From assembly GCA_017455525.1 (NCBI GenBank), contig JAFTAP010000020.1, forward strand, positions 1 to 41,211: 41,211 nt of DNA. The letters run 5' to 3'. The notes beneath the pieces were generated by a model. The model ran no database searches and had not been told where the DNA came from. It saw only the letters and a list, made by a program, of their open reading frames with translations. Position 1 is the stretch's first letter, and each line of letters opens with the position of its first letter. This DNA is from Lachnospiraceae bacterium (GTDB lineage: Bacteria > Bacillota > Clostridia > Lachnospirales > Lachnospiraceae). A program made the position numbers and the translations under genes. This document shows positions 1,928 to 39,476 of the stretch, in pieces.

Positions 1928-2003
1928 AAATATCAAAGATTACAAAATGAAGCAATTAGGTGTAAACGTAAATAAAACTAGGTTTTTAAAGGAGAAAAAG
2001 ACG

Positions 2004-2787: not shown

Positions 2788-3686
2788 AAATTCTCATAAT
2801 AGGCTCTACGGGGTTTATAGGAACATACATATACAATCAGTGTGTTGCACAGGGAATCCCCGCACTGGGAACTTCTACAAAGGGGGAAGAGAGCAACACG
2901 ATAAAGTACCGTTTAGGAGACGATCCCGGTGAGATCATAAAAATCATTACCTCAGAAAAGGATGACAATTTATCAGCAATTATCACGGCATCGATTTCTA
3001 AAATCAGCGAATGTGAAATAAATGCTAAGGAGACAAGAAAGGTCAATGTCGAGGATACGGTTGAATTAATCAATCATCTTGTTGATACACGTGCAAGGAT
3101 TATATTCCTGTCAAGTGATGCAGTATTTGACGGAATCAAAGGAAATTACAAAGAAATAGATGACATTAATCCTATTAACGAATATGGAAGGCAAAAGGCA
3201 GAGGTTGAAGAGTATCTCAAAAACTTATCAGACAGCTTAGTTCTTAGAATATCAAAGCAATATGACATTGATATAAAGAAAAGACATCTGATAAGTGACA
3301 TATATAATCAGGCACAGAGTAATCAGAGGGTTAAGTGCATAAAAGGGATGTGTTTTAACCCGACATATGTGGCAGACACAGCATCCGGCATAATCGAATG
3401 CTGTAAGAGAGGGCTTAGCGGGATATATCATTTGGCTTCGCCTTGCTCAATGTCTAGATATGATGCAGCAATCAAGGTCGTGGATAAGCTTGATATGCCA
3501 AAGGAAATCGTGGAATGTGTTGAACCCGAGGAACTAAATCTGACATATAGGATTCCGCTTAATACATCCATGGATGTAAGTAAGCTGAAGGCGGTATTAA
3601 AACATGATTTTAAGACCATGGACGAAGTGCTGTCGGAATGGCATATAGATAGTCATGATTCTTACGGAGAATATAAAAATAGATGA
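2784..3686 (+). CDS. RmlD-like NAD(P)-dependent sugar reductase/epimerase (SDR)
   Basis: A 300-residue extended short-chain dehydrogenase. It begins with MKILIIGSTGFIGTYIY, carrying the GxxGxxG dinucleotide loop at residues 7-13. IIFLSSDAVFDG holds the catalytic Ser region and INEYGRQKAEVEEYL supplies the YxxxK pair. LVLRISKQYD and GIYHLASP match the substrate half of RmlD/dTDP-4-dehydrorhamnose reductases. The start is GTG, coupled to the upstream stop by a 4-nt overlap, and the stop overlaps the next gene as ATGA. The probable role is reduction of a 4-keto nucleotide sugar such as dTDP-6-deoxy-4-ketohexose. No RmlA, B or C is present in the window, so the donor would be made elsewhere or the enzyme has another nucleotide-sugar substrate. 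Confidence 0.8.
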   Translation: MKILIIGSTGFIGTYIYNQCVAQGIPALGTSTKGEESNTIKYRLGDDPGEIIKIITSEKDDNLSAIITASISKISECEINAKETRKVNVEDTVELINHLVDTRARIIFLSSDAVFDGIKGNYKEIDDINPINEYGRQKAEVEEYLKNLSDSLVLRISKQYDIDIKKRHLISDIYNQAQSNQRVKCIKGMCFNPTYVADTASGIIECCKRGLSGIYHLASPCSMSRYDAAIKVVDKLDMPKEIVECVEPEELNLTYRIPLNTSMDVSKLKAVLKHDFKTMDEVLSEWHIDSHDSYGEYKNR

Positions 3687-4789
3687 AAGACGTCATTTTA
3701 TACGGGAATGTCCGAGATAAATCATTTAAGGCTGTAACGGAATATTATTTTATTAATGAGGGATATAATATTCTTTTTTATGCAGATGACAATATCCCGT
3801 CCGGTCAGAAAAAGGAAGCGGTGAGCTTTGAGGGACTTGGAGTAAGGAAAATCTGTAATCCTGATATCATAAAAGATTATCCTGATGCATTGATAATAAT
3901 TATGGTTAGCATGTCGTATAAGAAAATTATCAGCCGTCTAAGGAATCAAGGCATAAGAAATGAAATAATGCTGGCACCGCTGCTTGGATGGCGTTTTATA
4001 ATCGATGACTTTGTCCCGCCGGAAAAACTAATAAATGATATTCCGGATTGGATAAATAATAACAAGAGCGAGCTGCTTAATATATATGAAAAGGACGATT
4101 ATTATACTAAAGATTTATTAAACGATATAATAAAAGAACGGTCACAGTTTACGCCGATTGACTATTCAAAATATGAATGCCTGAGTAATCAACAGTATTT
4201 CGGAGAAGAAGCCTTATCACCAGATGGGGGGATTATATTCGTAGATGGAGGGGCATATATAGGTGACAGCATAGAGGAAATGGAGCTAACCAAACGGAAA
4301 AATCTGATTTTTTCAATAGGCTTTGAGCCCGACGCGGATAATTGGAAAATAGCCACGAAAAAAATGGTGGAGCTTGGAATTGATAACAAAGTAAAGCTTG
4401 TCAACAAGGGAATGTACGATAAGGACGGGATTTTGAGGTTTCGTAAGGTTGGTGATGAATATAGCATAGACAAGGAGGGCGATATAGAGACAGACGTATG
4501 CAGACTTGACGGTTATATATCAGATATAGATGAAGCTTTTAGAAAAAGCAGAAATAGAAATCCACAGTTATGCATTAAGATGGATCTTGAAGGCAGCGAG
4601 GTTCAGGCATTGCTTGGTTCAAAGGATACCATCGGAAGGTATCATCCATATATGGCAATCTGTCTTTATCACAGGATGAAGGATATATTAGATGTTCCCA
4701 AAACCATCATGGGAATGAGAGATGATTATAAGTTTTATCTAAGAGCAGGGGTGCATACAGAAATGTATGCAGTGCCGCAAATAGGGTAG
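3683..4789 (+). CDS. FkbM-family methyltransferase with N-terminal Rossmann-like module
   Basis: A 368-residue protein. Residues 1-110 (VILYGNVRDKSFKAVTEYY ... FYADDN) resemble a degenerate copy of the PglD-like module shared across this locus. A linker follows, then an FkbM methyltransferase domain from about residue 180: GGIIFVDGGAYIGDSIEEME, SIGFEPDADNW, VNKGMYDKDGILRF, and the late FkbM signature CIKMDLEGSEVQALLG. FkbM enzymes O-methylate sugars or small molecules. A G6 run at 4226-4231 encodes the first two glycines of the SAM loop. The gene overlaps its upstream neighbour by four bases, and the ribosome site of the next gene covers its stop. The acceptor is inferred to be a sugar of the local glycan. 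Confidence 0.8.
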   Translation: MKDVILYGNVRDKSFKAVTEYYFINEGYNILFYADDNIPSGQKKEAVSFEGLGVRKICNPDIIKDYPDALIIIMVSMSYKKIISRLRNQGIRNEIMLAPLLGWRFIIDDFVPPEKLINDIPDWINNNKSELLNIYEKDDYYTKDLLNDIIKERSQFTPIDYSKYECLSNQQYFGEEALSPDGGIIFVDGGAYIGDSIEEMELTKRKNLIFSIGFEPDADNWKIATKKMVELGIDNKVKLVNKGMYDKDGILRFRKVGDEYSIDKEGDIETDVCRLDGYISDIDEAFRKSRNRNPQLCIKMDLEGSEVQALLGSKDTIGRYHPYMAICLYHRMKDILDVPKTIMGMRDDYKFYLRAGVHTEMYAVPQIG

Positions 4790-4801
4790 GAGGGTGACAC
4801 T

Positions 4802-5560
4802 ATGGCTGATTTTGATGGATTCAGAAAATTCTCAGCGGATGAGGAAATAGAGAGGAAGCTAGCAGAGCATTGTAATAAATATGGCATAAATTCTTTGGAT
4901 GCGATAAAGCTTTTTCCGGTGCTTGCTAGGAGGCAATGGCTGAAGCGTTTCCTTGCTCATCATGAGATGTTCATAAAAACGCTTGAAGTGCCGGGCGACA
5001 TAGCCGAGCTTGGAGTGTTCAGAGGACAGGGGCTTATGACATGGGCGAATTTTCTCGAAAGCTACTGTATATCTGACAGGACTAAGGTCGTATATGGCTT
5101 TGATAATTGGCGTGGATTCGTAAAAATGTCTGAGCAGGATGGAGAGGACGAGGAGGATTTTAATAAAAAGCTGGGCGGGTTTTCGCCGGAAAAATACTAT
5201 GATGAGCTTAAAGATGCAATAAAGATTTACGATGGGGATCGGTTTATACCATGGAAGGCCCGTATTGAGTTGATTGAAGGAAATATAGAAGAGACTGCCT
5301 TAAAATTCGTACAGGATAATCCGGGGGTTCGATTTTCTTTAGTCCATTTCGATTGTGACCTTTACGAGCCGACAAAGGCTGCACTGGAGGCATTTTGGCC
5401 GCGACTTTCGAGGGGAGGAGTGTTTCTCTTTGATGAATACGCAATGAAGGCATGGCCAGGGGAAACGCAAGCTGTAGATGAATTCTTCGCGGACAAGGAT
5501 GTACGAATAAAGAAGCTTCAGTGGAACAATGTGCCTGCGGGATATATAGTTAAGGAGTAA
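4802..5560 (+). CDS. TylF/MycF-family O-methyltransferase
   Basis: 252 residues, matching the size of TylF (macrocin O-methyltransferase) family enzymes. The SAM-binding strand and loop is GDIAELGVFRGQGLMTWANF. VVYGFDNWRGF is the acidic second strand, and VHFDCDLYEPTKAALEAFWP followed by GGVFLFDEYA carries the family's metal-binding Asp cluster. A strong GGAGG ribosome site overlaps the upstream stop, 9 nt before ATG 4802. Characterised relatives use Mg2+ to methylate sugar hydroxyls on antibiotics, and many homologues lie in surface-glycan clusters. Here it probably methylates a glycan sugar hydroxyl. The next gene begins four bases after its stop. Confidence 0.88.
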   Translation: MADFDGFRKFSADEEIERKLAEHCNKYGINSLDAIKLFPVLARRQWLKRFLAHHEMFIKTLEVPGDIAELGVFRGQGLMTWANFLESYCISDRTKVVYGFDNWRGFVKMSEQDGEDEEDFNKKLGGFSPEKYYDELKDAIKIYDGDRFIPWKARIELIEGNIEETALKFVQDNPGVRFSLVHFDCDLYEPTKAALEAFWPRLSRGGVFLFDEYAMKAWPGETQAVDEFFADKDVRIKKLQWNNVPAGYIVKE

Positions 5561-5563
5561 GAG

Positions 5564-6562
5564 ATGTATTCTGAGAAGAAAAAGTTGCATGAAAGAGAGC
5601 GAAATCATAGGGCGGGCGAGCTTCGGACCATAGCTCTTGATGTTACGGGTAAGTGTAATATGAGGTGCAAGTTCTGCTATGCAGAGACATTTACGGATAA
5701 AACTCCGGTGAGCTTGGATGTGCTAAAGAAAGCATTGGATGAGGCGTATGAGATGGGGGTATGCCATTATATCCTACAAGGCGGAGAAGTGTGTGCCGAC
5801 TATGACAGGCTGAAAGCAATTATAGAGATGATTTACCCTGATGAGACATACATAAATATAGTATCGAATGGCTGGCTTATGACGAGGGATAAGATAGAGG
5901 AGCTTAGAGACCTGCAGGTAGACCGTATTACTTTTTCATTAGACTCCGGAATAGAGCAAGAGCATGATGCAAGCAGGATGATGGGGGGGTACAAAAGAGT
6001 GCTTGAGGCTATTGATAATGTCAAAGCAGCAGGTATGCTATCCGGTATATCCACTGTGGTCACGCATCAGAGCCTGCATAGCGAAGGATTTAAGGAGGCG
6101 TATAAAATAGCTGAGGAGAAAGGAATAAAATTCGATGTCCAGATAGCGGAACCCGTCGGTAAGCTGGATGGAGAAAGGGAATGTCTGATAACGAAGGAGG
6201 ATGCTGAGTTTATCTATGATATGTATATAAATTCGCCTATTTCTTCGAATGGGCAGCGGATGGTAAAGAGGGATCTGTTCAGGGGAGATGAGGTTAAGTG
6301 TCCTGCCGGAAAAGAATTCATGGCTATAACCGTAGATGGTAACGTTATGCCTTGTAATTTCATACAGGCAAGTCTTGGAAACATCAAGGATAGGTCTCTT
6401 AGAGAAATGAGAAATGAACTGCTGAAGTCCAGGTGGTTTAATCAGGACTATGCATATTGTTTGGTTGGCGAAAGTAAGGAGTACTTCGATGAAATAGTAT
6501 ACCCTAATAAGGACAAGGTAAAGCCACTGGATGCTTATGAAATATTTGAATTATATGATTGA
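5564..6562 (+). CDS. Radical SAM/SPASM-domain protein
   Basis: 332 residues. CNMRCKFC gives CxxxCxxC at C31, C35 and C38. LQGGEV is the SAM-binding GGE, and IVSNGWLM and ITFSLDSG follow the standard radical SAM barrel order. The C-terminal half has CPAGKEFMAITVDGNVMPC and NFIQASLGNIKDRSLREM, the heme-biosynthesis/SPASM type of auxiliary cluster region, with a late Cys in YAYCLVGES. AAGGAG lies 6 nt before ATG 5564. A G7 run at 5983-5989 (codons ATG GGG GGG) is in frame here. The substrate is unknown. In a glycan operon with many methyltransferases it may modify a sugar nucleotide or an attached amino-acid or peptide group. It is clearly distinct from the first radical SAM protein of the operon. 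Confidence 0.85.
   Translation: MYSEKKKLHERERNHRAGELRTIALDVTGKCNMRCKFCYAETFTDKTPVSLDVLKKALDEAYEMGVCHYILQGGEVCADYDRLKAIIEMIYPDETYINIVSNGWLMTRDKIEELRDLQVDRITFSLDSGIEQEHDASRMMGGYKRVLEAIDNVKAAGMLSGISTVVTHQSLHSEGFKEAYKIAEEKGIKFDVQIAEPVGKLDGERECLITKEDAEFIYDMYINSPISSNGQRMVKRDLFRGDEVKCPAGKEFMAITVDGNVMPCNFIQASLGNIKDRSLREMRNELLKSRWFNQDYAYCLVGESKEYFDEIVYPNKDKVKPLDAYEIFELYD
5983..5989 (+). repeat. In-frame G7 tract
   Basis: Seven G residues encode the end of Met and two Gly codons in the second radical SAM protein. A one-base slip would truncate it. It is listed because identical G7 runs break two genes upstream. Confidence 0.6.
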
Positions 6563-6583
6563 GAAATAAAAGGGGGATTATGT

Positions 6584-7273
6584 ATGTGTAATACAGATGA
6601 GGAAAGATGGAATATCGCACGCAAAACGATGATAAAGTCGGACTTTATACTGGGGGAATATCTTAAACATGCAATGTTGAGTGATATAAAGCATTTGGGA
6701 TTTTCATTAAGCAGATATAAGTTTGCAGCTAAAATGCTAATGTATAAACCATTATTACGAGTATGTGAACTAGGCTGCTCTGAGGCAATTGGGGGGGTAA
6801 TGCTTAAGCAGAATACCCAACTATTGAGGTATGTAGGAATAGACTTAGATAAAGAAGCTATTAAATGGAATAGAGAAAATCTATCAGATGAGGAATTTGT
6901 TTTTATTAATGGGAATTTCTTAGACGAAAAGTGTACAGAGGAGAGGTTTGATGCAGTTATTAGTTTGGATGTGATAGAACATATCAAGCCCGATAATGAG
7001 GATCTTTTTTGCAAGAGAATGGTTGATAAACTTGAAGATGAGGGTGTGGCAATAATAGGAACGCCTAATGTATCTATGAGACCTTATGCTAATGAGTCAG
7101 CAAGAATAGTTCATATTAATAATTATGATCAGCAAAGATTATATGAGACAATGACAAAGTATTTCAGAAATGTCTTTATTTTTGGAATGAATGATGAAAT
7201 AGTAAATACTGGATTTGAACCGATGGCATGTTATTTATTCGCCATATGCACGGGTAGGAGAATAATATATTGA
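6584..7273 (+). CDS. Class I SAM-dependent methyltransferase
   Basis: 229 residues with a clear class I methyltransferase core: LLRVCELGCSEAIGGVML (motif I), YVGIDLDKEAIKW (motif II acidic strand), FINGNFLDE, FDAVISLDVIEHI (motif IV, common in UbiE/BioC-like enzymes), then LEDEGVAIIGTPN. A G7 run at 6791-6797 codes the glycines of motif I and is in frame here. A GGGGG ribosome site precedes ATG 6584, and the stop overlaps the TTG start of the next gene (TTGA). The tight coupling to a glycosyltransferase suggests a sugar or glycolipid acceptor. The exact acceptor cannot be read from sequence. Confidence 0.82.
   Translation: MCNTDEERWNIARKTMIKSDFILGEYLKHAMLSDIKHLGFSLSRYKFAAKMLMYKPLLRVCELGCSEAIGGVMLKQNTQLLRYVGIDLDKEAIKWNRENLSDEEFVFINGNFLDEKCTEERFDAVISLDVIEHIKPDNEDLFCKRMVDKLEDEGVAIIGTPNVSMRPYANESARIVHINNYDQQRLYETMTKYFRNVFIFGMNDEIVNTGFEPMACYLFAICTGRRIIY
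6791..6797 (+). repeat. In-frame G7 tract in methyltransferase motif I
   Basis: Seven G residues span the SAM-binding glycine loop of the methyltransferase at 6584. The frame is intact at length seven. Confidence 0.6.
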
Positions 7274-8829
7274 AAACTGTTATTTTTGGAAGTGGTCACG
7301 AGGGTATAAATTACTTTCTGGACACAAAGGATGAAGTAGTTGCTTTTTTAGACAATGCAAGAGAGAAGCAGGGAAAATACATATTAGACGTACCTATTCT
7401 TCCTGCTAAGGCTGTTGTTGATTTAGTGTATGACAGGATTTATGTTGCCATTATAGATGGTGAGCAGTCATTAGCAGCAAGAAAACAATTAAGAGCAATG
7501 GGAATTTCTCCTGATGTCGTAGATTACTGGGAACAGGAAACAACTGATGAGTCAATTATTATCAGAACGAATTGTTATGAGTCAGCTAGAGCAGTTGGCC
7601 AAATGTATTGCGAGTTATCATATAGATCGCAAATAGAAAGATTTGAAAAGCAGTGGAGATCTATAAAAAAATCATATAAAGGAGTAAGGCTTCTTCGCAT
7701 ATCAGTGTGTAATATAGGAGAGTTCATTGTACGATATAATGTTATTTTGCATTGTGAAGACTTTCATGATAAAGATATATATACAATATGTATACCAGAT
7801 GGGAAAGCGTATGCAGGTCTAAGGCATAGCGTATGTAATCATAAATTATTAGAGTATGTATCGAAAGATATAAATTTGATATATAAAAAAGACGAACTTT
7901 TATTTTGGAGTTATGTGATTAGTGTTCATGCATATGAACTTATTCTAATTGATTACGAGAAATATATTAATCGTGGAAATGAGCCAACTTCATATCTCAC
8001 GAATGCATATAAAGATCGAATCCTTTTTACTGCTGAAGAGAAGAACCGGTGGCAACAAAAGTCAGATAAAATGGGGATCACAGGAAAGTATATATGTTTT
8101 GCGGCTAGATCATCTGATTATCATAACAAAGAGTTTGGCACTGATTTAACCGCTGAGGGAAGAAATATGCCATTTTCTGACTATGATAAATCAATCATTT
8201 ATTTACGAAAGCAAGGTATACAATCTGTGCGTATAGGACGCGGAACGCCATTAAAGAATGCAGTGGACGGGTGCGTGGATTACGCCGGGAACTATGCTGA
8301 TGAATGTTATGATTGGTATTTGATAGCTAACGGCTTATTCATGGTAAGTAGTGAGTCAGGGATAACATGCATGGCAGGATTTGTTAGACGCCCTTTATTG
8401 GTTGTGAATATTCATTATTTTGCCATAGGGGGAAGTGGCTTGGAATTTACAGAATATGATTTGTTTATCCCTCAAAAGGTTTATTCAAGAGACAAGCACA
8501 GACTTCTAACGCTTTCAGAAAGAATCGCCCTTGAACCGAATCTTTTTTTTAAATTAAATCAAGAAAATCTAGATAAATATGAGATAGAATTCATTCCTAA
8601 TACGCAGGAAGAAATTTTGGAAGCAACTAGTGAGATGCTGTTACGTATAGAGGGCAAATGGGAAGAGTCAGAAAAGGATATATCGGATAGAAACAGATTT
8701 AATGAAATTTTGAAGGAAGAAAGCGATAAGTTGAGACTGAACAAAGATATAGCATGGGCTTTTGGACCGATGAAGTACATTTCTATTGCCAGCTCATACT
8801 TACGGAAAAATGCGTATTTATTGGATTAG
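7270..8829 (+). CDS. TIGR04372-like glycosyltransferase with N-terminal Rossmann-like module
   Basis: 519 residues. Residues 1-95 form the shared module: TVIFGSGHEGINYFL, then VVAFLDNAREKQGKYILDVP and VYDRIYVAI. The rest resembles the TIGR04372 putative glycosyltransferases: VRLLRISVCNIGEFIVRYN, KYICFAARSSDYHNKEFG, QGIQSVRIGRGTPLKNAVDG, and the donor-side pattern WYLIANGLFMVSSESGITCM. These proteins have a GT-B-like layout and occur in polysaccharide clusters, but their donors are mostly undefined. The start is TTG 7270, with GGTAGGAG at 7254-7261 and a 4-nt overlap with the upstream stop. A charged helical tail (residues 455-490) is present. No transmembrane segment is visible. Confidence 0.7.
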   Translation: MKTVIFGSGHEGINYFLDTKDEVVAFLDNAREKQGKYILDVPILPAKAVVDLVYDRIYVAIIDGEQSLAARKQLRAMGISPDVVDYWEQETTDESIIIRTNCYESARAVGQMYCELSYRSQIERFEKQWRSIKKSYKGVRLLRISVCNIGEFIVRYNVILHCEDFHDKDIYTICIPDGKAYAGLRHSVCNHKLLEYVSKDINLIYKKDELLFWSYVISVHAYELILIDYEKYINRGNEPTSYLTNAYKDRILFTAEEKNRWQQKSDKMGITGKYICFAARSSDYHNKEFGTDLTAEGRNMPFSDYDKSIIYLRKQGIQSVRIGRGTPLKNAVDGCVDYAGNYADECYDWYLIANGLFMVSSESGITCMAGFVRRPLLVVNIHYFAIGGSGLEFTEYDLFIPQKVYSRDKHRLLTLSERIALEPNLFFKLNQENLDKYEIEFIPNTQEEILEATSEMLLRIEGKWEESEKDISDRNRFNEILKEESDKLRLNKDIAWAFGPMKYISIASSYLRKNAYLLD

Positions 8830-8857
8830 CAGATACTCTTCGGAGCCTTTTTAGAAA

Positions 8858-9820
8858 TTGAAAGCCTATATTTCAAAGATTCAGCATTTCAATGTACATG
8901 ATGGCAATGGCTTTCGGACTACGGTCTTTTTTCAGGGATGTAATTTAAGATGTAAGTGGTGTCAAAATCCGGAGCTTCAAAACCCTACTCCGATCATGAT
9001 GTATGACAAAGCCTTATGTACCGGATGTGGTGCATGTATGGAAGCATGCACGAATAAAGCTTTGGAGCCATGCGGTGAAGGAATATATTTTCATGCTTTT
9101 GAATGTACACTATGCATGAAATGTGAGGAGCAATGTTTTAATGGAGCAAGATTTTTTAGCTCTCATAAATGCACCTTAGAATATGTATTAAAAGAATGTC
9201 TTAAGGATGAGGCGTTCTACGTATATCATGGTGGTGGAGTGACTTTAAGTGGCGGAGAGCCTTTGCTACAAAGTGATTTTTGCTTTAGCTTGTTACATAG
9301 TCTAAAAAGTATCGGAATATCGACTGCAGTTGAAACGGCGGGGTATGTAAATTACGAAGCGATAGAAAAAGTCATAGAGGATACGGATGTTTTCTACTAT
9401 GATGTTAAGCTCATAGATAGAGGAAAACGGAAGAAATATCTTGGAAGCGATAGCAATCTTATGCTGGATAATTTAGTAAAGCTCTCCCGTTTACATGATA
9501 GAATAGTGATTCGTATTCCTCTGATACCAGGCGTGAATGACAGCGAGACTGAATACATAAGAATTATGAAATACATTAAAAGCCTGGGGAATATAAGATA
9601 TGTACAAATTATGCCTTTTCATCAGCTGGGAATGAGAAAGTATGAGCTGGCTGATATCAATTACGAGATGAAGGATATAGATGCAGAAAACACGATAAAG
9701 ATAAATAAGTGTAGCGATATAGCAAAGAGCTATGGCTTTGAAGTAAACATAGGCGGAGGAGGTTTTGTCTACGAGTTACGAGCTGTCTCCAAGGTTAAAG
9801 AGACTGGAATGCCGACTTAA
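8858..9820 (+). CDS. Glycyl radical enzyme activating protein (radical SAM, with two extra 4Fe-4S sites)
   Basis: 320 residues. CNLRCKWC gives the radical SAM cluster at C28, C32 and C35, and WCQNPE follows as in known activases. A ferredoxin-like insert has C54/C57/C60/C64 and C83/C86/C89/C93, so two additional 4Fe-4S clusters are expected. This is typical of activases for dehydratase, decarboxylase and lyase GREs, and is absent from the short pyruvate formate-lyase activase. GGVTLSGGEPLLQ carries the SAM-binding GGEP at 132-135; later motifs include YYDVKLID and VIRIPLIPGVND. The start is TTG 8858 with only a weak GGAG 12 nt upstream, and the first in-frame ATG is far inside. Its end overlaps the start of the GRE. 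The role is to abstract hydrogen from the GRE glycine using SAM and an electron donor. Confidence 0.92.
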   Translation: MKAYISKIQHFNVHDGNGFRTTVFFQGCNLRCKWCQNPELQNPTPIMMYDKALCTGCGACMEACTNKALEPCGEGIYFHAFECTLCMKCEEQCFNGARFFSSHKCTLEYVLKECLKDEAFYVYHGGGVTLSGGEPLLQSDFCFSLLHSLKSIGISTAVETAGYVNYEAIEKVIEDTDVFYYDVKLIDRGKRKKYLGSDSNLMLDNLVKLSRLHDRIVIRIPLIPGVNDSETEYIRIMKYIKSLGNIRYVQIMPFHQLGMRKYELADINYEMKDIDAENTIKINKCSDIAKSYGFEVNIGGGGFVYELRAVSKVKETGMPT

Positions 9821-12134
9821 GTCTAAGGACTATAAGCAGCCTAAACCTTGGTATTTTGAAAATGTGAATATATTGAATATCCCTGAGAACGAGTACCTGA
9901 AGAAGGAATCCATAGTAATAAGGAAGGCATATGCAATAAGATACGTTGCAGAACATATACCTACTCCGATTTATGAGGATGAACTCATAGTCGGAGTTCC
10001 TAACCAAAGCTCTGTGGAATTTGGTATGTGCATGCCCAGGTATCTTACAGAAGACGAAAGAGATTATTTCAGGCGCCTTGGTTTAAGCGAACTTTCCCTT
10101 TCGGGTCATCATCCGCCGGATTGGTCGAGAATAATAGAAAAGGGAATATCAGGGCTTAGGGAAGAGGTTTCGAAGCAACTGCTAGCAATGACAAAAGTAA
10201 GAGATACTAATAATGAGGCGGAAGTAGAAAATGAGACAGATGAGCTGAGGGCAATGCTGTTATCGCTTGATGGATTGGAAACGCTTGCAATACGTTATGC
10301 AGATAAGGCTTTGGAACTTGCCGTAAAGGAGAAGGGAAAGACACGTAAGCAAGAATTGTTGAAAATCTATGAGACTTTATGCCACGTTCCTGATAGACCG
10401 GCCGATACATTACAGGAGGCTGTTCAGTCATTTTGGATAACATATACCTTATTAGCGAGTTGCGGGGAATTTCTTCCTTTGGGACGTATAGATCAATATT
10501 TAATAAAATACTATCTTGATGATATTCATTTGAGAAGAATTGATGACGAACAGGCTAGAGATATTATAGGATCATTCTTAATAAAATGTAATGAAAGAAA
10601 TGTGCTGGATGCGAAGAAGTTCATACCACACATGGAATATGGGACTTTTTCGGGAGTCATACACTATGTGAGCAGAGAAGATACGCTAATATATGAAAAT
10701 AAAAACAGAGAGCACTTTTATCACGACGATGAACCGGAAGATTCAGTCCATAATAAATATTTCGGACAGGAAGCTAATAACAGGATGATGACTTGCGTCG
10801 TCGGCGGAACAGACTCTAATGGGAATGATGCAGCTAATCGCCTTTCCGGGATGATAATTGAGTTGATATCAGAAATGAGGCTTTTGTTTCCTACTGTTGG
10901 CGTCAGGATGAGCAAAAACACAAAGGATGAGCTTCTTAACATAGTCGCTGACGCAATTCGGAGTGGGCAGGGTGAGCCTGTAATATATAACGATGAATCC
11001 ATATTAAAATCTTTTTCTAAATTAAGCATAACAGCAGACGAAGCAAGAAATTACAGCAGCGATGGCTGTTGGGAAACAATAATACCGGGAGTAACAAATT
11101 TCAGCTATTCTCTTGTAAACACATTACAGTGCTTGGAATATGTTTTTAACCACGGTCATCTCTTAAAGACAGGGGCCATGAATGGCTTGGATTGCGGAGA
11201 CATTCGCAATCTGACTACATATGATATGTTTTATACGGTATTTCTAAAAGAGCTTTATTATGTCATGGACGCTTTATGGAGAATTAATATAGAGAACAGG
11301 GGAATTTCATCTTTATCTGCACCTGATCCGTTATTGTCTGTACTTTGTGATGATTGCATAGAATCAGGAAGAGACTTCTACGGAGACGGTGCTAAATATC
11401 ACCTGAGGTGTCTTCTTTTGACGGGTTTTGCAGATACAGTTGATTCGCTTAATGTCATAAAAAAGCTTGTATATGAAGATAGAAAGATAACTATTGAAGA
11501 GTTACATGGTGCAATGCTGGATAATTGGAAGGGGCATGAGAGATTACTGGCATACATAAGGAACAGGATTCCTAAATATGGAGACAACGATGTAACGACT
11601 GATTCGACGGGGATCAGACTTATAAAAGATTTTTCATCTAAAATCATAGAGTTAAGGAAACGTAGCTATTCTATACAATTAACGGGCGGTATAGGAACTT
11701 TCCATATGTATGCACTATGGGGAGATACGGTTCATGCATCGGCTAACGGAAGACAGGCGTATGATGCTCTTGCACCCAACTATTCCCCGGTGCCCGGGAA
11801 TAGTGAAAAGGGACCATTAGCGGCTATAATGAGTGCCACCAGAGCGGATTTATCAGAAATGACAACGGGAACGCCATTGGATTTGTCAGTAAATTCAAAT
11901 GAGTTTGAGGAAGAGTCGGGAAGAGAGAGGCTGAAAGACCTCATCAGAGGATTTATTGACATGGATGGTCAGATATTGACAATTACCGCAACGAGTGCAG
12001 AAGAATTGAAGGAGGCTATGCTTTATCCTGAAAAGCACAAGGATCTGAGAGTTAGGATGGGAGGATTATCAGCATATTTTATTCAGCTGGCACCTGCTCA
12101 ACAGGAAAAGATAATCGAAAGGTTTGTGCCCTAA
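9765..12134 (+). CDS. Glycyl radical enzyme of the dehydratase/lyase type, substrate unknown
   Basis: 789 residues, the usual size of glycerol-dehydratase-like GREs. The N-terminus (SPRLKRLECRL ... IRYVAEHIPTPIYEDELIVG) matches the start of PFL-like domains. The thiyl-radical loop is SSDGCWE, with C435 and the acid E437 two residues on. This Cys-x-Glu pattern is that of eliminating or decarboxylating GREs, not the Cys-Cys pair of pyruvate formate-lyase. The C-terminal radical loop is VRMGGLSAYF with R764 and radical glycine G767; the usual aromatic after the glycine is Leu here. The start is TTG 9765, which overlaps the activase by 56 nt. AGGAGG sits only 2 nt before it, so a slightly different start is possible. 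Downstream is an RgpF-like glycosyltransferase one base away. A GRE in a glycan operon is unusual. GCWE rather than GCVE hints at a separate subfamily. Confidence 0.9.
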   Translation: MSTSYELSPRLKRLECRLKSKDYKQPKPWYFENVNILNIPENEYLKKESIVIRKAYAIRYVAEHIPTPIYEDELIVGVPNQSSVEFGMCMPRYLTEDERDYFRRLGLSELSLSGHHPPDWSRIIEKGISGLREEVSKQLLAMTKVRDTNNEAEVENETDELRAMLLSLDGLETLAIRYADKALELAVKEKGKTRKQELLKIYETLCHVPDRPADTLQEAVQSFWITYTLLASCGEFLPLGRIDQYLIKYYLDDIHLRRIDDEQARDIIGSFLIKCNERNVLDAKKFIPHMEYGTFSGVIHYVSREDTLIYENKNREHFYHDDEPEDSVHNKYFGQEANNRMMTCVVGGTDSNGNDAANRLSGMIIELISEMRLLFPTVGVRMSKNTKDELLNIVADAIRSGQGEPVIYNDESILKSFSKLSITADEARNYSSDGCWETIIPGVTNFSYSLVNTLQCLEYVFNHGHLLKTGAMNGLDCGDIRNLTTYDMFYTVFLKELYYVMDALWRINIENRGISSLSAPDPLLSVLCDDCIESGRDFYGDGAKYHLRCLLLTGFADTVDSLNVIKKLVYEDRKITIEELHGAMLDNWKGHERLLAYIRNRIPKYGDNDVTTDSTGIRLIKDFSSKIIELRKRSYSIQLTGGIGTFHMYALWGDTVHASANGRQAYDALAPNYSPVPGNSEKGPLAAIMSATRADLSEMTTGTPLDLSVNSNEFEEESGRERLKDLIRGFIDMDGQILTITATSAEELKEAMLYPEKHKDLRVRMGGLSAYFIQLAPAQQEKIIERFVP

Positions 12135-13256
12135 TTGAACAGGATAGCAATATTCTCATTTTATAATTCGTCAGGTATTGTGGAGGACTATGTATTATTT
12201 TTGATAAAGGAGCTAAATTCGGTTGCTGACATAGTCTATATTGTCATAAATGGGATTATATCTGATGATGGCCTACAGATTCTTGAAAAAAATGCGGATC
12301 ATATAATAGTACGCGATAATGCCGGATTTGATGCGGGAGCCTATAAATCTGTTATATCATCCGAAAAATATATTCACGAAATAGAGAATGCAGATCGACT
12401 GATATTATGCAATGATACTTTTTTCGGCCCCTTTGTTCCATTTGCCCAGATATTCAATAAAATGCCTGATCACATAGATTTCTGGGGCATGAATTATGTG
12501 GGAAACTGCCCTTTCGACCATCTTCAATCCTATTTTCTTGTAATGGAAAAAGAGGCTATACATGATACTTTAGTTTATTTTAATAATTATGTTCATGAAT
12601 CAGAATCAGATATCAGAGAAATATATGCAACATTGGAAACGGGGCTGTTTAATTATTTGTGTAGCATGGGACATAGATGGGGAAGCTATGTGGAGTCTGA
12701 GGATATAGACATCTATAAATCCGGTGACTTGGCAATAATAAAATATGGGTTGCCGATACTAAAGAAGAAATTTTTTCTTGAAGCCGATAGCATTAATAAT
12801 GTGAAAACAGCTTTGAGCTACATACGTAATCGTACAAACTATAACATATACCTCGTACTGGACTGTATCCGTCATGAATACGGGGTAGAGCTGAAGGAGA
12901 GAGATCTAAGTGAGTCAGAGACAGAGTATATGACGTCAGACGCAGTATATATGAGTCATAGAAATGTGTCTGAGGAGGCATTGTCTGATTTCTTCAAAAA
13001 TGAAAATGTGTACATTTATGGCGAGGGAATAATCGCTCGTAAAGTATACAATCTGTATTCGCATTTTAATTGCTTCAGGGGTTTTGTGGTCACTGATAAT
13101 ACAAAATTAAACCGTAGGATATTATATGGTCTTCCAGTGGATGAGTATGATGGAAGATATGACAGTAAAAATGTGATAGTGGCACTTAATAAAAACAATA
13201 CCGCAGAATTGATAAATCAAATAGGGCATAAAATAAATTGGATGTATTTATGGTAG
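12135..13256 (+). CDS. RgpF-like (rhamnan synthesis F) glycosyltransferase with C-terminal Rossmann-like module
   Basis: 373 residues. The first 250 resemble the rhamnan synthesis protein F family: RIAIFSFYNSSGIVEDYV, IIVRDNAGFDAGAYKSVI, RLILCNDTFFGPF and HIDFWGMNYVG. These proteins transfer sugars in rhamnose-containing cell-wall polysaccharides. From about residue 292 the shared module follows: NVYIYGEGIIARKVYNLY, then FVVTDNTKLNRRILYGLPV and NVIVALNKNN. The TTG start at 12135 follows directly on the GRE stop, so translation is coupled. Conserved DNAGFD and NDTFFGP support a GT-A-like fold. With the RmlD-like enzyme upstream this weakly supports a deoxyhexose (rhamnose-like) residue in the product. 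Confidence 0.78.
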   Translation: MNRIAIFSFYNSSGIVEDYVLFLIKELNSVADIVYIVINGIISDDGLQILEKNADHIIVRDNAGFDAGAYKSVISSEKYIHEIENADRLILCNDTFFGPFVPFAQIFNKMPDHIDFWGMNYVGNCPFDHLQSYFLVMEKEAIHDTLVYFNNYVHESESDIREIYATLETGLFNYLCSMGHRWGSYVESEDIDIYKSGDLAIIKYGLPILKKKFFLEADSINNVKTALSYIRNRTNYNIYLVLDCIRHEYGVELKERDLSESETEYMTSDAVYMSHRNVSEEALSDFFKNENVYIYGEGIIARKVYNLYSHFNCFRGFVVTDNTKLNRRILYGLPVDEYDGRYDSKNVIVALNKNNTAELINQIGHKINWMYLW

Positions 13257-13265
13257 AGGTGGCTG

Positions 13266-14189
13266 ATGAGTATGGATAATAAAATCGTGTTATATGGCGG
13301 AGGAAAGACAGCGGATTATATATACAGCAAATACAAGGACAGTATTATAGGCGTAATTGACAACTATAAAAGCGGAATGTTCAGAAGGAATGTTCCATAT
13401 CTGTCATTGGAGGATTTTCAAAAAAGATATTTTAATACTTGCGTCTATATTTCCTCCATAAAGTATGCAGATCAAATGAGGAAGGAACTTGAGGAAGCCG
13501 GAATAAAATACAAGCTTCCCGATGAGCTGTTTGAGGATCCTAATGTCCATAAGGACGAGGAAATCTGTCATGAGAATTGGATGGAATATATCAGGCATTT
13601 AGCAGACTTTGAAGGCGCGCGTATTCTTGAGGTGGGAAGCAGGGTTCAAACAGGGACAAATCTGCGCGGACTATTTAAGAAGGCTACGTATATAGGTTTT
13701 GACTATTATAACGGAGAGAATGTGGATGTTGTCGGAGATGCACATAAACTGACAAGCTATTTTGATGATAAATTTGACCTGATTTTTTCATCTGCTGTCT
13801 TTGAGCACCTCGCAATGCCATGGATTGTTTCAACTGAAATCATAAAATTACTGAAAATGGGGGGGCATGTTTTTGTAGAGACTCATTATTCATATTCAAG
13901 TCATGAGAGACCTTGGCATTTCTTCCAATTTAGTGAGAATGCGCTTAATGTACTTTTTCCGGAATGCTTTGGCATAGAATGCATAAAGAAGGGGTGCAGC
14001 AACTTGATAAGGAATGGAGAATTTTCAGAAACTGCATCTGATGAATTAAAGGGTAAAATGGTATCTGGACTATACTGCCATTCGGAGTTATTAGGCAAAA
14101 AAGTCAAGGAGTTAGACGAAGAGGAATACGACTGGCGGAGATGTAGTTTGGATGATGTTGTTGGTGCAACCAGATATCCATACCATTAA
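13266..14189 (+). CDS. Methyltransferase with N-terminal Rossmann-like module
   Basis: 307 residues. Residues 5-95 are the shared module: KIVLYGGGKTADYIYSKY, then IIGVIDNYKSGMFRRNVPYL and VYISSIKYADQM. A class I methyltransferase-like domain follows from about residue 117: ARILEVGSRVQTGTNLRGLF, YIGFDYYNGENVDVVGDAHK, FDLIFSSAVFEHLAMPW and LKMGGHVFVETHYSY. A G7 run at 13859-13865 encodes MGG and is in frame. AGAGGTGG is upstream of ATG 13266; ATG 13272 is an alternative start. The late segment HERPWHFFQFSENALNVLFP resembles acceptor-binding regions of sugar methyltransferases in surface clusters. The acceptor is unknown. Confidence 0.78.
   Translation: MSMDNKIVLYGGGKTADYIYSKYKDSIIGVIDNYKSGMFRRNVPYLSLEDFQKRYFNTCVYISSIKYADQMRKELEEAGIKYKLPDELFEDPNVHKDEEICHENWMEYIRHLADFEGARILEVGSRVQTGTNLRGLFKKATYIGFDYYNGENVDVVGDAHKLTSYFDDKFDLIFSSAVFEHLAMPWIVSTEIIKLLKMGGHVFVETHYSYSSHERPWHFFQFSENALNVLFPECFGIECIKKGCSNLIRNGEFSETASDELKGKMVSGLYCHSELLGKKVKELDEEEYDWRRCSLDDVVGATRYPYH
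13859..13865 (+). repeat. In-frame G7 tract
   Basis: ATG GGG GGG codons (Met-Gly-Gly) in the methyltransferase at 13266. A one-base slip would remove the last third of the protein. Confidence 0.6.
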
Positions 14190-14196
14190 CATACTT

Positions 14197-15585
14197 ATGA
14201 TTAAGACAGTAATATTCGGGTTTGGAGAATACTATAGAAAATACAGTGAGACATTATTCTATACTTCTGAGGTTGTAGCAATATGCGTTAGTGACAGCAG
14301 TAAATATGAATCAGAAATTAACGGAGTTCCGATAATAGAACCCAGAAACTTAAAGGATATTTTCTACGACAAGATTGTAATACTTGTAAAGGAACAAGAT
14401 GATATAAGGAATTATTTAGTTTCTAATGGAGCTGTATTGCAAGATATTGAAGATATATTTGAGTATAGGAAAAAACATCTGGATGGAATACGAAGATGCA
14501 TAGTAAAAACATATGATCGAAAAAAAGGAACTGTTTTGGTAATAAGCGATAATCTTGAGCTAAGCGGAGCTCCCATATCGGCAGTGTATTTGTCAATCGC
14601 TTTATATGAGGAAGGGTATGAAGTTGTGCTTGCTGCACCTGTTATAGATGATAGGTTGGTATCCGAGTTTTCAGGCAAAGAGATAGGTCTTGAACAAGTT
14701 TTCTCATTACCATATATCCGGAATGAGGATCTTAAATGGGTTTGTACTTTTGATCATGTAATCGTGAATTCCTATACAATGATTCAGAGTGTGTATGATA
14801 TATCAGAAACAAGGAAAGTAATATGGTGGCTTCATGAGAGCGGAGAGAGGCATGACAAAGTATATAGCGAGATGTCGAAACGCTTCAATGTTACATTTAA
14901 TGAGGAACGCATAACAAACATAAGAGCATTAGCTGTATCATCTATAGCCAAACGTGCATTTCTTATGCATCATGGTAGTAAGAACTGGAATGTCGGGGAA
15001 TTGTTATTAGGAATGCCTGACACATACCAATCAATAGAGAATAAAAATAATGAAAAGATTATATTCGCATTGATTGGAGGCATAATAGAATTAAAAGGAC
15101 ATGATATTCTGCTCGATGCCATCGACCTGCTTTCAGATGACGAGAAAGAAAGATGCGAATTTTGGTTCATTGGAAAGAAATTTAACACAGAGTATTGCAG
15201 GGGAATAACGGAAAGAATACTAGCTTATAGTAATGTCGTTATAAAGGGGGAGTTTTCCCGGGAGGAAATGTCTGAGGCATATACATATATTGACTGTGTT
15301 ATATGTGCCTCGAGAGAAGAGACATTATCGATTACGGTAGTAGAGGGGCTTATGCATGGCAAAATCTGCATAGTATCGGATGCAACAGGCGTAGCAGAGT
15401 ATATCAATAACGGAAGGAACGGATTCGTGTTTAAGAATCAGGACGCAGGCATGCTTTCCATACATATAAAGAATTTTATATCAGATAAGTTCAGGACTGA
15501 TTACATAAGAGCAAATGCCAGAGAAACATATAATAGCTTTTTTTCTATGAAAGCGTTTGAAAAAAGGGTAAGAGAATTAGTGTAA
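14197..15585 (+). CDS. GT4-type glycosyltransferase with N-terminal Rossmann-like module
   Basis: 462 residues from ATG 14197, chosen over an upstream ATG at 14152 because MIKTVIFGFGEYYRKY begins the shared module directly and the gene then starts 7 nt after the previous stop. Module features are VVAICVSDSSKYESEINGVP and KIVILVKEQDD. A GT-B fold follows from about residue 110: GTVLVISDNLELSGAPISAV (the glycine-rich N-lobe entry), VIWWLHESGERHDKVY, IIFALIGGIIELKGHDILLD (start of the donor lobe) and CVICASREETLSITVVEGLM, which holds the family 4 ExxxxxxxE pair. A retaining GT4 enzyme is expected. Its stop overlaps the next ATG by one base, and the next gene is another GT4. Confidence 0.85.
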   Translation: MIKTVIFGFGEYYRKYSETLFYTSEVVAICVSDSSKYESEINGVPIIEPRNLKDIFYDKIVILVKEQDDIRNYLVSNGAVLQDIEDIFEYRKKHLDGIRRCIVKTYDRKKGTVLVISDNLELSGAPISAVYLSIALYEEGYEVVLAAPVIDDRLVSEFSGKEIGLEQVFSLPYIRNEDLKWVCTFDHVIVNSYTMIQSVYDISETRKVIWWLHESGERHDKVYSEMSKRFNVTFNEERITNIRALAVSSIAKRAFLMHHGSKNWNVGELLLGMPDTYQSIENKNNEKIIFALIGGIIELKGHDILLDAIDLLSDDEKERCEFWFIGKKFNTEYCRGITERILAYSNVVIKGEFSREEMSEAYTYIDCVICASREETLSITVVEGLMHGKICIVSDATGVAEYINNGRNGFVFKNQDAGMLSIHIKNFISDKFRTDYIRANARETYNSFFSMKAFEKRVRELV

Positions 15586-17219
15586 TGAATATTATTTTTG
15601 CTTCAACCGCATATATCGAACCGGGGAGAGTGGCCACAGGACTTCCCAATTACCTTAGGCATATATCGCATTCCTTGGCTAAAATGGGACACGATGTCAC
15701 TATAGTGTATAGTGCCAACTATAATCAAATCAGAAACGAAAATGGCGTCGAAGTTATCGCCGTACACGTACCAAGACTTACTGCCGATGATGAGCTAGAA
15801 ACTAGCAGAGTACGTGGGGTGGCGGATGCTTATTATATAAATCGTAAGATTGAGGAAATGATGCGAGACAGATTGTTTGACATCATACAATTTTCATCGC
15901 TGGAAGGTATAGGAAGACTCTATAGAAAAGATGTGCCGGCAGTTATGAGGCTGTCTTCTTACCATAAAACATACTTCGCATCCGGAATCACGATATGCGC
16001 TGAGTTAAGAGATGCACGAGCCGAGGAAGAAAGAAAGGCAGCACGGGGAATGGATGGTGTATTTGCACCTTGTCAAATAACAGCTCAGGCATTCAGTATG
16101 GACACAGGAATAGATGTAGATATTATAGAGAGTCCATTTGAGAATGACGTTCAAGAAATGGATAAGACGGTTTATGAAGAAAGAATCAGTGGAAGGAAAT
16201 ACTTTCTTTTTTTTGGAACACTTTATGCAGAGAAGGGAATTCTGATAATAGCGAAAACTTTGCATGATTTTTTAGGGAAGCATGAGGACTATTATTTTGT
16301 TGCTGCTGGTGATGTGACAAATATAGGTGGCATAGGTGCAGATAAGATATTATTGGATGGTGCAGGAGAATTCGCTGAAAGAGTAATCATACTTCCGGCT
16401 CTTCCGCACAAGTGTCTTTATCCCGTTATTGAGGGAGCAGAATTCGTAGTGCTACCATCTCTTATGGATAATCTACCGAATGCTTGCATAGAGGCAATGT
16501 ACTTTGGAAAAATCGTTATCGGAACAGATGGGGCAAGCTTTGAACAGCTTATTGATGATGAAAAAAATGGCTTTCTTTGTGGGATAGGTGATGCCGTAAG
16601 CCTGCTTAACAAAATGGAAAAGGTAGCTACATTAGACGCAATAACAAAAAAACGCATGGAGAAGCTGGCTCATCAGAGAATAACGAAGTTGGATTCAGAA
16701 AAAGTAGCACAGAATCTTATTGAATATTATAAGGACATTATTGCAAATAAAGGAAATAATAAAGCCTATAGAGAGGAGGCGGATCAGGCTTATAAGTCTG
16801 CTGAGAAATTTATAAATGACAGGCTAAATGAAATAAAAAAGGCATATATGGAAGAAGCAGATAAGAGATTTCTGCAGTCTAGGGTTTTGCTCAGATGGGT
16901 GGATATTCTAAGAAAAGGATCAGATTACAAAGGCTTTTTTAGTAAAAGAGAATATAAAAGCATAGTTATTTATGGAGTTTATGATATAGGGAAAATGCTT
17001 ATAGAGGATCTTATAAATAATGGACTCAATGTAGTATATGCTATTGACAGGATTCACCGAAATACCTGTGTAAAAATATATACGCCGGATTCAGAGCTGC
17101 CTGATGCAGATGTAATGGTGGTCACTCCGATAAGCAGTTTTCAGGAGATCAAATCCTCGTTGTCGAGGAGATTTAAGGGCAGTATAGTTTCACTAGAAGA
17201 TGTATTATTTGATGAATAG
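15585..17219 (+). CDS. GT4-type glycosyltransferase with C-terminal Rossmann-like module
   Basis: 544 residues. The GT-B core fills residues 1-385: MNIIFASTAYIEPGRVATGL, GLPNYLRHISHSLAKMGHDV (acceptor lobe), YFLFFGTLYAEKGILIIAKT (donor lobe entry) and FVVLPSLMDNLPNACIEAMY, holding the family 4 acid pair. A helical charged linker (about 385-450) leads to the shared module near 465: SIVIYGVYDIGKMLIEDLIN, VVYAIDRIHRNTCVKIYTP and ADVMVVTPISS. It starts at ATG 15585 within the stop of the preceding gene. It differs from the preceding GT4 by carrying the module at the opposite end, which argues against a simple tandem duplication. Confidence 0.85.
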   Translation: MNIIFASTAYIEPGRVATGLPNYLRHISHSLAKMGHDVTIVYSANYNQIRNENGVEVIAVHVPRLTADDELETSRVRGVADAYYINRKIEEMMRDRLFDIIQFSSLEGIGRLYRKDVPAVMRLSSYHKTYFASGITICAELRDARAEEERKAARGMDGVFAPCQITAQAFSMDTGIDVDIIESPFENDVQEMDKTVYEERISGRKYFLFFGTLYAEKGILIIAKTLHDFLGKHEDYYFVAAGDVTNIGGIGADKILLDGAGEFAERVIILPALPHKCLYPVIEGAEFVVLPSLMDNLPNACIEAMYFGKIVIGTDGASFEQLIDDEKNGFLCGIGDAVSLLNKMEKVATLDAITKKRMEKLAHQRITKLDSEKVAQNLIEYYKDIIANKGNNKAYREEADQAYKSAEKFINDRLNEIKKAYMEEADKRFLQSRVLLRWVDILRKGSDYKGFFSKREYKSIVIYGVYDIGKMLIEDLINNGLNVVYAIDRIHRNTCVKIYTPDSELPDADVMVVTPISSFQEIKSSLSRRFKGSIVSLEDVLFDE

Positions 17220-17231
17220 GAAAATATAAAG

Positions 17232-18389
17232 ATGTATAGAAAAACAGAATTATTCTATGAACCGCTAAAAGAACCATATGATATCATGAAACCGATTGAG
17301 GAGGGATTCCCTGCCGGAGAGATGAGTAAGGAAGAGCAGGCTTTTCTGTGTGGGCTTATAAGAGCGAATTCCCCAAAGAAGCTTTTAGAGATTGGAGTAG
17401 CTGCCGGAGGAACTACAGCCGTGATAGGGAACTGTTTATCTAAGGTTAGTCCTGATGCCAGGATGTATTCAGTAGATATAAGCAGCAGATATTACAGAGC
17501 ACCTGAGAAAGAGAGTACGGGTTATCTTTATAACCAAGTGAATGAACGATTGAGGTTTGCAAATTTTCATAAGTTCATGCTGGGCAGAAGCATACCATTT
17601 TGGATAGATGAGATTGGGGCTGGAATAGATTTTCTTGTTTTAGATACTGTTCATAGTCTCCCGGGAGAGGTTTTAGACTTTCTGTGTGTCTTGCCATATC
17701 TCTCAGATGGAGCGATAGTTGTCATGCATGATATAAATTATAATTTGCTGTCTACGTACTCTAATGGTGTAAATTCATATGCAACTAAGGTTTTATTTTC
17801 CTCTGTGCGGGCAGGAGAAAAGTATTATGACTTTGATAGCCCGAGAACAAATATTGCGGCTTTCAGAGTTAATTGCGATACCCGTGAGGACGTATGGAAT
17901 GTGTTTTCATCTTTGTCAATCACATGGGAATATATACCGACAATGGTTGATATAAAAAAGTATACCAGTATATTCCTTAGACATTATGGAATTACTGAAG
18001 CGCTGGAGGAGTGGTTGAAATCGCTTCTGTATCTACAGGAAAAGGCGCAAGCAAAAAAGATAGGAAATGTGGATAAGGAGATTGAACACATAAGAGAAAC
18101 GGTAAAAAAGCATAATAGCACCTATATATACGGAACCGGACTAAAAGGAGCAAGAATGGTCGATCTACTTGATAAAATACAGATCAGCGGTTTTTGTGTC
18201 TCCGATAATTATCCGACTGAAGGTGAATACTTGGGTAAAAGTGTGCGGCATATAAGTGAGGTATCCGTCGGCGAAGGCATCGTTGTGCTGGCATCTGATT
18301 CAGAGGAATGCTTATGGCATATTTATGAAAATGAGATTCCTCATGTTGTTGTTTCTGACAGACTGTGGAAAACATATAATTGCCTATAG
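17232..18389 (+). CDS. Class I methyltransferase-like protein (CmcI-type) with C-terminal Rossmann-like module
   Basis: 385 residues. KKLLEIGVAAGGTTAVIGNC (motif I), ARMYSVDISSRYYRAPEKES (motif II), IDFLVLDTVHSLPGEVLDF and LSDGAIVVMHDINYNL resemble the Methyltransf_24/CmcI-like family, where acidic residues bind a metal and assist methylation. From about residue 296 comes the shared module: TYIYGTGLKGARMVDLLD, then GFCVSDNYPTEGEYLGKSV and IVVLASDSEE. The ribosome site is weak (AGGAAAA). The stop is followed after 9 nt by a GT2 gene. The metal and acceptor are not established. Similar proteins in surface clusters methylate sugar hydroxyls. Confidence 0.78.
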   Translation: MYRKTELFYEPLKEPYDIMKPIEEGFPAGEMSKEEQAFLCGLIRANSPKKLLEIGVAAGGTTAVIGNCLSKVSPDARMYSVDISSRYYRAPEKESTGYLYNQVNERLRFANFHKFMLGRSIPFWIDEIGAGIDFLVLDTVHSLPGEVLDFLCVLPYLSDGAIVVMHDINYNLLSTYSNGVNSYATKVLFSSVRAGEKYYDFDSPRTNIAAFRVNCDTREDVWNVFSSLSITWEYIPTMVDIKKYTSIFLRHYGITEALEEWLKSLLYLQEKAQAKKIGNVDKEIEHIRETVKKHNSTYIYGTGLKGARMVDLLDKIQISGFCVSDNYPTEGEYLGKSVRHISEVSVGEGIVVLASDSEECLWHIYENEIPHVVVSDRLWKTYNCL

Positions 18390-18398
18390 CGCATAGAT

Positions 18399-19328: not shown

Positions 19329-19359
19329 GGACAACAAAGAATCATATTCAAGGAGGCCA

Positions 19360-20688: not shown

Positions 20689-20729
20689 AAAGATTATAGT
20701 ATACAGATTTTTTTGGAAAGGCTTAATTT

Positions 20730-39401: not shown

Positions 39402-39476
39402 CCGGAGGCGTGGGATGCATAGGAGATACACCCTGACACATGGGTGGAATACAGGGCGGGATAGGAGGTACTAGAA

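Follow-up and report, generated by a model that had tools for sequence, protein, structure and literature searches.

A glycyl radical enzyme and its activase inside a surface-glycan gene cassette of a Lachnospiraceae bacterium

The stretch of DNA considered here, which we call the window, is one whole contig of 41,211 nucleotides (JAFTAP010000020.1) from the 2.72-Mb, 110-contig genome assembly GCA_017455525.1 of a Lachnospiraceae bacterium. At positions 8858-12134 it carries genes for a radical SAM activase and a glycyl radical enzyme (GRE), set between the genes for a TIGR04372 glycosyltransferase and an RgpF-type protein. We confirmed that this placement inside a glycan operon is genuine, and neither chance nor artefact; both proteins are full length and have strong family scores. 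The GRE belongs to a clade without a curated family, whose other members lie mostly among genes for sugar import and metabolism; it therefore looks like a sugar-dehydrating enzyme that was recruited to glycan building, a combination found to date in a single genome.

The gene pair and its cassette

The activase gene, with a TTG start, encodes 320 residues that include the radical SAM motif CX3CX2C (C28/C32/C35) and two ferredoxin-type 4Fe-4S cysteine sets (C54/C57/C60/C64 and C83/C86/C89/C93). It scores 301.9 bits against TIGR02494, the GRE-activating proteins, for which the curated cut-off is 174.35. The GRE gene also begins with TTG and is open throughout its 789 codons; the product has GCWE at residues 434-437 (Cys435, Glu437) and VRMGGLSAYF at 763-772 (Gly767), and passes both the PFL-like profile PF02901 (385.5 bits) and the Gly_radical profile PF01228 (53.1 bits, cut-off 22.2). 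Gly767 and Cys435 are invariant across 33 alignment rows. The window thus has the sequence features that mark the GRE superfamily: the radical-glycine motif, the active-site cysteine of the barrel and an adjoining cognate radical SAM activase. A preliminary description, made from the window's sequence, had given the range of the pair exactly and named its catalytic and cluster-binding residues correctly.

The same description placed a TIGR04372-like glycosyltransferase upstream and RgpF downstream, and both scores are indeed over the cut-offs. Its "translational linkage" is apt for the activase and GRE genes, which overlap by 56 nt, and for the GRE and RgpF-type genes, which are separated by 0 nt, but is a loose term for the 28-nt gap between the TIGR04372 gene and the activase. 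No gap in the run of genes at 2053-20688 is larger than that. Between 6500 and 14300 there are no terminator-like sites on the + strand and two on the - strand, which is weak evidence given that 3.4 are expected in shuffled sequence; promoter-like matches in the same interval are at the shuffled level (29 vs 30.0). The pair and its surroundings are as follows.

8858-9820, + strand: GRE activase, radical SAM CX3CX2C plus two 4Fe-4S sets (family profile and motifs)
9765-12134, + strand: GRE of the GCWE clade, with Cys435, Glu437, His115 and Gly767 (profiles, alignment and tree)
7270-8829, + strand: TIGR04372 glycosyltransferase directly upstream of the activase (151.8 bits, cut-off 45), with an N-terminal part that looks Rossmann-like by eye
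12135-13256, + strand: RgpF-type protein, starting at the base after the GRE stop (105 bits, cut-off 25)
990-1874, + strand: first radical SAM/SPASM protein
2053-2787, + strand: methyltransferase-like protein, under Pfam cut-offs
2784-3686, + strand: RmlD-like NDP-sugar (nucleoside diphosphate sugar) reductase, with GxxGxxG and YxxxK (family match and motifs)
3683-4789, + strand: FkbM family methyltransferase
4802-5560, + strand: TylF-type O-methyltransferase
5564-6562, + strand: second radical SAM/SPASM protein
6584-7273, + strand: class I methyltransferase
13266-14189, + strand: methyltransferase, with an N-terminal part that looks Rossmann-like by eye
14152-15585, + strand: GT4 glycosyltransferase
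15585-17219, + strand: GT4 glycosyltransferase
17232-18389, + strand: methyltransferase (Methyltransf_24)
18399-20688, + strand: two GT2 glycosyltransferases (18399-19328 and 19315-20688)
990-20688, + strand: cassette of low GC content at third codon positions (GC3, 0.29-0.46), enclosing the activase/GRE pair
34304-40490, + strand: activated-alcohol or activated-sugar module comprising a nucleotidyltransferase plus APH-type kinase, an SIS isomerase, a cytidylyltransferase/metallophosphoesterase protein and LicD

Between 990 and 40490 the + strand carries almost every long frame that is not nested within a larger one; these frames encode the glycosyltransferases, methyltransferases, two radical SAM/SPASM proteins and RmlD-like reductase and, downstream, the nucleotidyltransferase/kinase, SIS isomerase, cytidylyltransferase/phosphoesterase and LicD proteins. 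A Pfam scan left several large frames of the second window half without a match. With a GC3 of 0.36 (activase) and 0.38 (GRE), the pair sits within the 0.29-0.46 of the cassette, while genes from 20730 onward have 0.45-0.67; six further loci of the same genome have an overall GC of 43-50%. GC3 among ten related GREs runs from 0.39 to 0.83, so composition links the pair to the cassette and leaves the donor unnamed. The fragmentation of the assembly into 110 contigs might raise the suspicion of a chimera joining two unrelated contigs, but both junctions would have to coincide exactly with the boundaries of closely spaced genes, and a single GC3 range holds from 990 to 20688; we regard this explanation as extremely improbable. 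As a separate matter, the sharp GC3 step at 20688-20730 makes the first 20 kb look like a cassette that was brought in from elsewhere and now abuts a resident glycan module.

A clade of GREs from sugar-type operons

Searches with the window GRE covered at least 861 other genomes, incomplete ones among them; in the family, class and phylum searches, and in one centred on genome G232, the best two candidates per genome were scored. The first search, of 98 other genomes (47 from the same genus), gave at best 224.6 bits, for a match to the C-terminal half at 32% identity; short pieces of the N-terminal part reached 39% among the matches listed. The family search covered 396 other genomes, six of which had full-length relatives at 33-46% identity; below these the score dropped from 395.6 to 230.2 bits, where the next GREs began. 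The second family search, around G232, returned the same six and nothing new among the matches listed. One further carrier genome, with two copies, came from the class sample (391 genomes, own included); the phylum sample (398, own included) contained no additional clade carrier. The window protein alone, used with peptide patterns, had no close relative in genome_contigs or viral_contigs. A three-row alignment (A2) retrieved 88 relatives from genome_contigs, which holds named genomes, and none from viral_contigs. Of the 80 that were kept, ten are of the GCWE type (L059-L065, L128, L135 and L137), three of these being the places already known as L053, L054 and L056. The clade is present in the named strains Faecalicatena faecalis AGMB00832 and Diplocloster agilis ASD5720. 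GREs on plasmids are at 24-30% identity (best 20 of 102 records).

The collected loci gave 136 GRE matches, of which 134 passed a length filter of 600-1000 residues and form the rows of the panel. GCWE and R[ML]GG[LW]SAYF occur together in 15 of these rows, 13 of them distinct, and the remaining 119 have neither motif. We chose 52 panel rows for a tree, added a CutC-like row, and used a quick method with SH-aLRT support, without bootstrap and with one outgroup row; the program flagged three long branches. The 13 GCWE rows form a single clade (SH-aLRT 99), in which identity to the window protein is 30-46%. The window GRE falls in a six-row group (support 100) with five GREs of sugar-type operons, and beside four rows of that group with a support of 88; its end branch measures 1.25, against 0.15-0.5 in the five nearest rows and up to 0.81 across the clade. 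The sister of the GCWE clade is L014/L152 (L152 being G058:C60, 10891-12984), a GRE of about 700 residues on a long branch, with ACWE and VRVWGWSGYF, and it too adjoins a sugar ABC importer. The GCWE clade is monophyletic and without a curated family, a firmer result than recruitment to glycan building, and the separate subfamily that had been proposed from the two motifs is borne out.

No close homologue of known function emerged. We scored the curated families HypD, CutC, sulfopropanediol dehydratase and PFL (pyruvate formate-lyase), and all cut-offs were missed widely. The best curated match of the window activase is to the HypD system (NF043069, 310.9 bits), but this is under the cut-off of 425, the GRE reaches 331.9 bits where NF043068 demands 1100, and the HypD row is in a different clade. 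CutC, the choline TMA-lyase, provides the best solved-structure match by sequence (9f3w), but the score against TIGR04394 is 299.7 bits vs a cut-off of 1050 and CutC chains carry Asp where the window GRE has His115. Sulfoquinovose papers combine GREs with transketolases; the sulfopropanediol dehydratase models are missed (302 vs 1000 bits), and we did not assign the window GRE to them. The E. coli YbiW and PflD rows fall outside the GCWE clade in the tree. HypD, CutC, YbiW and PflD were accordingly rejected as identities of the window GRE.

To see what accompanies clade GREs elsewhere, we considered the genes near 15 distinct clade loci (L053-L058, L060, L061, L062, L064, L065, L128, L135, L143 and L144). 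In L064 and L065 the two motifs lie in different frames; L128, truncated ahead of the motifs, was included solely because its first part resembles the window protein (38-40%). Flanking genes were annotated with Pfam at five loci (ten genes at each of three, nine at L058 and one at L057), and the remaining loci were compared by BLAST with those annotated genes and the window proteins. At least one gene of sugar import or of sugar or aldehyde metabolism is nearby in 13 of the 15, the types counted being sugar ABC importer, split transketolase, aldehyde or alcohol dehydrogenase, aldehyde ferredoxin oxidoreductase, ROK/Dak kinase, SDR epimerase and GH1. The other two are L064, a 4.3-kb contig without such genes, and L143, where the only matches were to ATPase domains in two large ABC proteins and were left uncounted. 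The neighbourhoods of the closest homologues, to which the preliminary description had looked for guidance, therefore point to sugar catabolism, and the Pfam-annotated flanks of the five loci contain no glycosyltransferase family. In 12 of the 15 an activase lies with the GRE or close to it; none was seen in L128, L143 and L144. The GREs of F. faecalis (L137) and D. agilis (L063) share with the window GRE the clade, the motifs, and the His and Gly/Ala pocket positions discussed below, but have catabolic neighbours.

Among the clade loci, the GREs of L060, L061, L053 and L065 are near aldehyde ferredoxin oxidoreductase genes, and L060 and L061 also have frames resembling, by eye, tungstate uptake and molybdopterin genes. 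This combination suggests that the GRE product in such loci is an aldehyde oxidised by the tungsten enzyme. At L065 the aldehyde ferredoxin oxidoreductase frame adjoins a clade GRE whose frame is broken in the record, on a contig named for the archaeon Candidatus Methanosuratincola.

Active site and possible chemistry

The active site was compared by alignment only, with solved glycerol dehydratase and with the GRE panel. Glycerol dehydratase Cys433, Glu435 and His164 have equivalents kept in the clade, which in the window GRE are Cys435, Glu437 and His115; the Cys-x-Glu pair and His164-type residue that characterise eliminases and dehydratases are thus both there, in agreement with the elimination or dehydration chemistry previously proposed. 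These residues are held in common with the B12-independent glycerol and propanediol dehydratases (1r8w, 5i2a), and chemistry like their diol dehydration is to be expected. The pockets are different: in the alignment, glycerol dehydratase Asp447 falls in a two-residue deletion, His281-Ser282 corresponds to Glu235-Phe236, Tyr339 to Met341 and Tyr640 to Gly644, the last position being Gly or Ala in 13 of 13 clade rows. With these pocket residues deleted or replaced, we rejected glycerol or propanediol dehydratase as the identity of the window GRE. We take the accepted roles of Asp447, His281, Ser282, Tyr339 and Tyr640 as given, and their numbering agrees with the alignment. By this comparison, the GCWE clade has a predicted pocket unlike those of the known dehydratases while retaining the eliminase-type catalytic residues, and the pocket of the window GRE is likely to suit a substrate larger than glycerol.

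The window GRE appears to be constrained but diverged. It retains 88 of 95 residues that are invariant in the other 12 clade rows, where the same test on each of the other rows gave between 88/88 and 88/96. Its five nearest relatives share 331 invariant positions, and at 99 of these the window GRE has another residue; two of the changes, E647H and N343T, are near the presumed pocket. The long branch, together with the alteration of seven clade-invariant residues, among them G421S and T685L, could be taken to signal a decaying or inactive gene without function. We consider this very unlikely, as the frame has 789 open codons, Cys435, Glu437, His115 and Gly767 are retained along with the 88 invariant residues, and the activase has all of its cysteine motifs.

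In the mechanism common to GREs, applied here to the residues found, the activase would install a radical on Gly767, which would oxidise Cys435 to a thiyl radical, and this would abstract hydrogen from a carbinol carbon of a polyhydroxy substrate. Glu437 and His115, if they act as their counterparts in glycerol dehydratase do, would aid water loss from the neighbouring carbon, and return of the hydrogen would yield a deoxy-keto sugar or a deoxy-aldehyde. Within the cassette the substrate could be a precursor such as a sugar phosphate, an alditol phosphate or an NDP-sugar. The RmlD-like reductase might then reduce the keto product and, with the methyltransferases, finish a deoxy or O-methyl unit for the flanking glycosyltransferases. 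A sugar or polyol substrate is proposed because the operons of the relatives are of the sugar type, and a glycan precursor because of the position of the genes, the lack of recognised catabolic partners, the shared composition and the divergence. The sugar deoxygenation suggested in the preliminary description is still an inference, which the relatives make more likely as regards a sugar substrate.

The GRE could also serve glycan building by making or trimming a polyol, diol or amino-alcohol that the module at 34304-40490 attaches. LicD, the APH-type kinase and two nucleotidyltransferase-type domains downstream would fit such a role, and glycerol, diols and choline are already known as GRE substrates. 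On the other hand, the module is 22 kb away, in the part of higher GC; relatives of its kinase/nucleotidyltransferase and SIS proteins recur in a related island (L145), in the stretch of which that was read no GRE was found; and the glycerol pocket residues are not retained. We think a non-sugar group of this kind rather improbable.

Recruitment to glycan building or a catabolic passenger

Our preferred reading is that the pair is a working GRE dehydratase and activase, derived from the unnamed sugar or polyol dehydratase clade and recruited to a surface-glycan cassette, and we put its chance marginally above even. The more specific proposal, of a biosynthetic GRE that dehydrates a sugar phosphate or NDP-sugar by radical chemistry to a deoxy-keto sugar, independently of the usual nucleotide-sugar dehydratases, is more tentative and falls a little short of an even chance. 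Recruitment, substrate and product are all inferred.

To our knowledge, GREs have a place only in central metabolism, nucleotide reduction or catabolism, and among the open-licence papers listed, judged by title and the start of the abstract, we found none linking a GRE to glycan building. The roles listed in the preliminary description left out sugars. GRE action on sugar phosphates is already known, however, in catabolism: according to the review PMC12441222, citing Ma et al. 2024, E. coli YbiW and PflD convert 1,5-anhydrohexitol-6-phosphates (of 1,5-anhydroglucitol and 1,5-anhydromannitol) to 1-deoxyfructose-6-phosphate. These enzymes resemble the proposed activity in having the Cys-x-Glu pair and in turning a sugar phosphate into a deoxy sugar phosphate, but they are catabolic and carry GCIE or GCVE with VRVAGYS. 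GRE eliminases and decarboxylases are described alongside ribonucleotide reductase and PFL in PMC11574389, which also notes many abundant gut GREs of unknown function.

Several results weigh against recruitment. No clade GRE came from the other 47 genomes searched in the genus, a good number of which are incomplete, and the six relatives from the family search are each beside sugar-type catabolic genes. Association of a GRE with glycan genes was not encountered a second time in the genus, family, class and phylum searches, and the comparable island in a related species of the same genus (L145, in G042) has no GRE in the 19.5 kb that were read. At a threshold of E 1e-4, the 12 window glycan proteins that were compared have no match in the 93 GRE loci collected (1.38 Mb), a test that detects relatives of those 12 only, as it did in the case of L145; the 93 include three duplicates of clade places, and another two pairs have midpoint sequence in common. 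Thus, in the set searched, the homologues are never next to such glycan genes, the very observation that had been named in advance as telling against a glycan role. No substrate is known to us for any member of the GCWE clade. Finally, the same genome has, elsewhere, 13 matches to Peripla_BP_4 and three strong ones to transketolase halves, so that a catabolic role with partners encoded in trans is possible. Taken as a whole, the preliminary interpretation is partly supported.

The glycan association not having been found a second time, the main rival is that the pair is a passenger, a catabolic sugar or polyol dehydratase with its activase that recombined into the cassette and is still fermentative, its transporters and dehydrogenases being encoded elsewhere. 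The sugar-type catabolic genes beside 13 of the 15 other clade loci, where nothing matches the window glycan proteins, would be expected of such a gene, as would sugar-importer binding proteins and transketolase halves elsewhere in the genome and a placement in a glycan cassette that is found once only. Against a passenger stands the exact fit between two glycan genes (28 nt, an overlap and 0 nt); the pair brought along no recognised partner gene, none being recognised by the Pfam scan in 30 window frames; its GC3 is that of the cassette; and its branch is long, with many changes at positions fixed in the nearest relatives. We judge it unlikely, if by no means negligible, and recruitment remains the best single reading, at about one half.

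If recruitment is correct, this GRE would supply a surface glycan with one of its building blocks, a role new to radical chemistry and an anaerobic route to deoxy sugars. Independently of this, the sugar-operon GREs of the GCWE clade form a defined group that lacks a curated family, and the named strains that carry it allow a direct search for substrates.

Searches with the neighbouring TIGR04372 protein, aimed at related cassettes, gave a match in 1 of 47 other genomes of the genus and, at E 1e-40, none in 259 other genomes drawn from the family. The island L145 (G042:C14) has, at 16836-18575, a transketolase encoded as a pair of half-proteins, a further example of a sugar-carbon enzyme within a glycan locus, and it has distant relatives (22-24%) of the radical SAM/SPASM protein at 990-1874. 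Within the window, a frame at 24461-24814 resembles a HicB-type antitoxin amid the glycan genes, and the 984-residue protein at 36447-39401 has cytidylyltransferase and metallophosphoesterase domains together with about 500 N-terminal residues without a Pfam match. Two plasmid-borne GREs were also seen, one in Hymenobacter (L150), annotated as two adjoining frames, and one in Acinetobacter (L151), with an activase and with transposase genes a few kb away on both sides.

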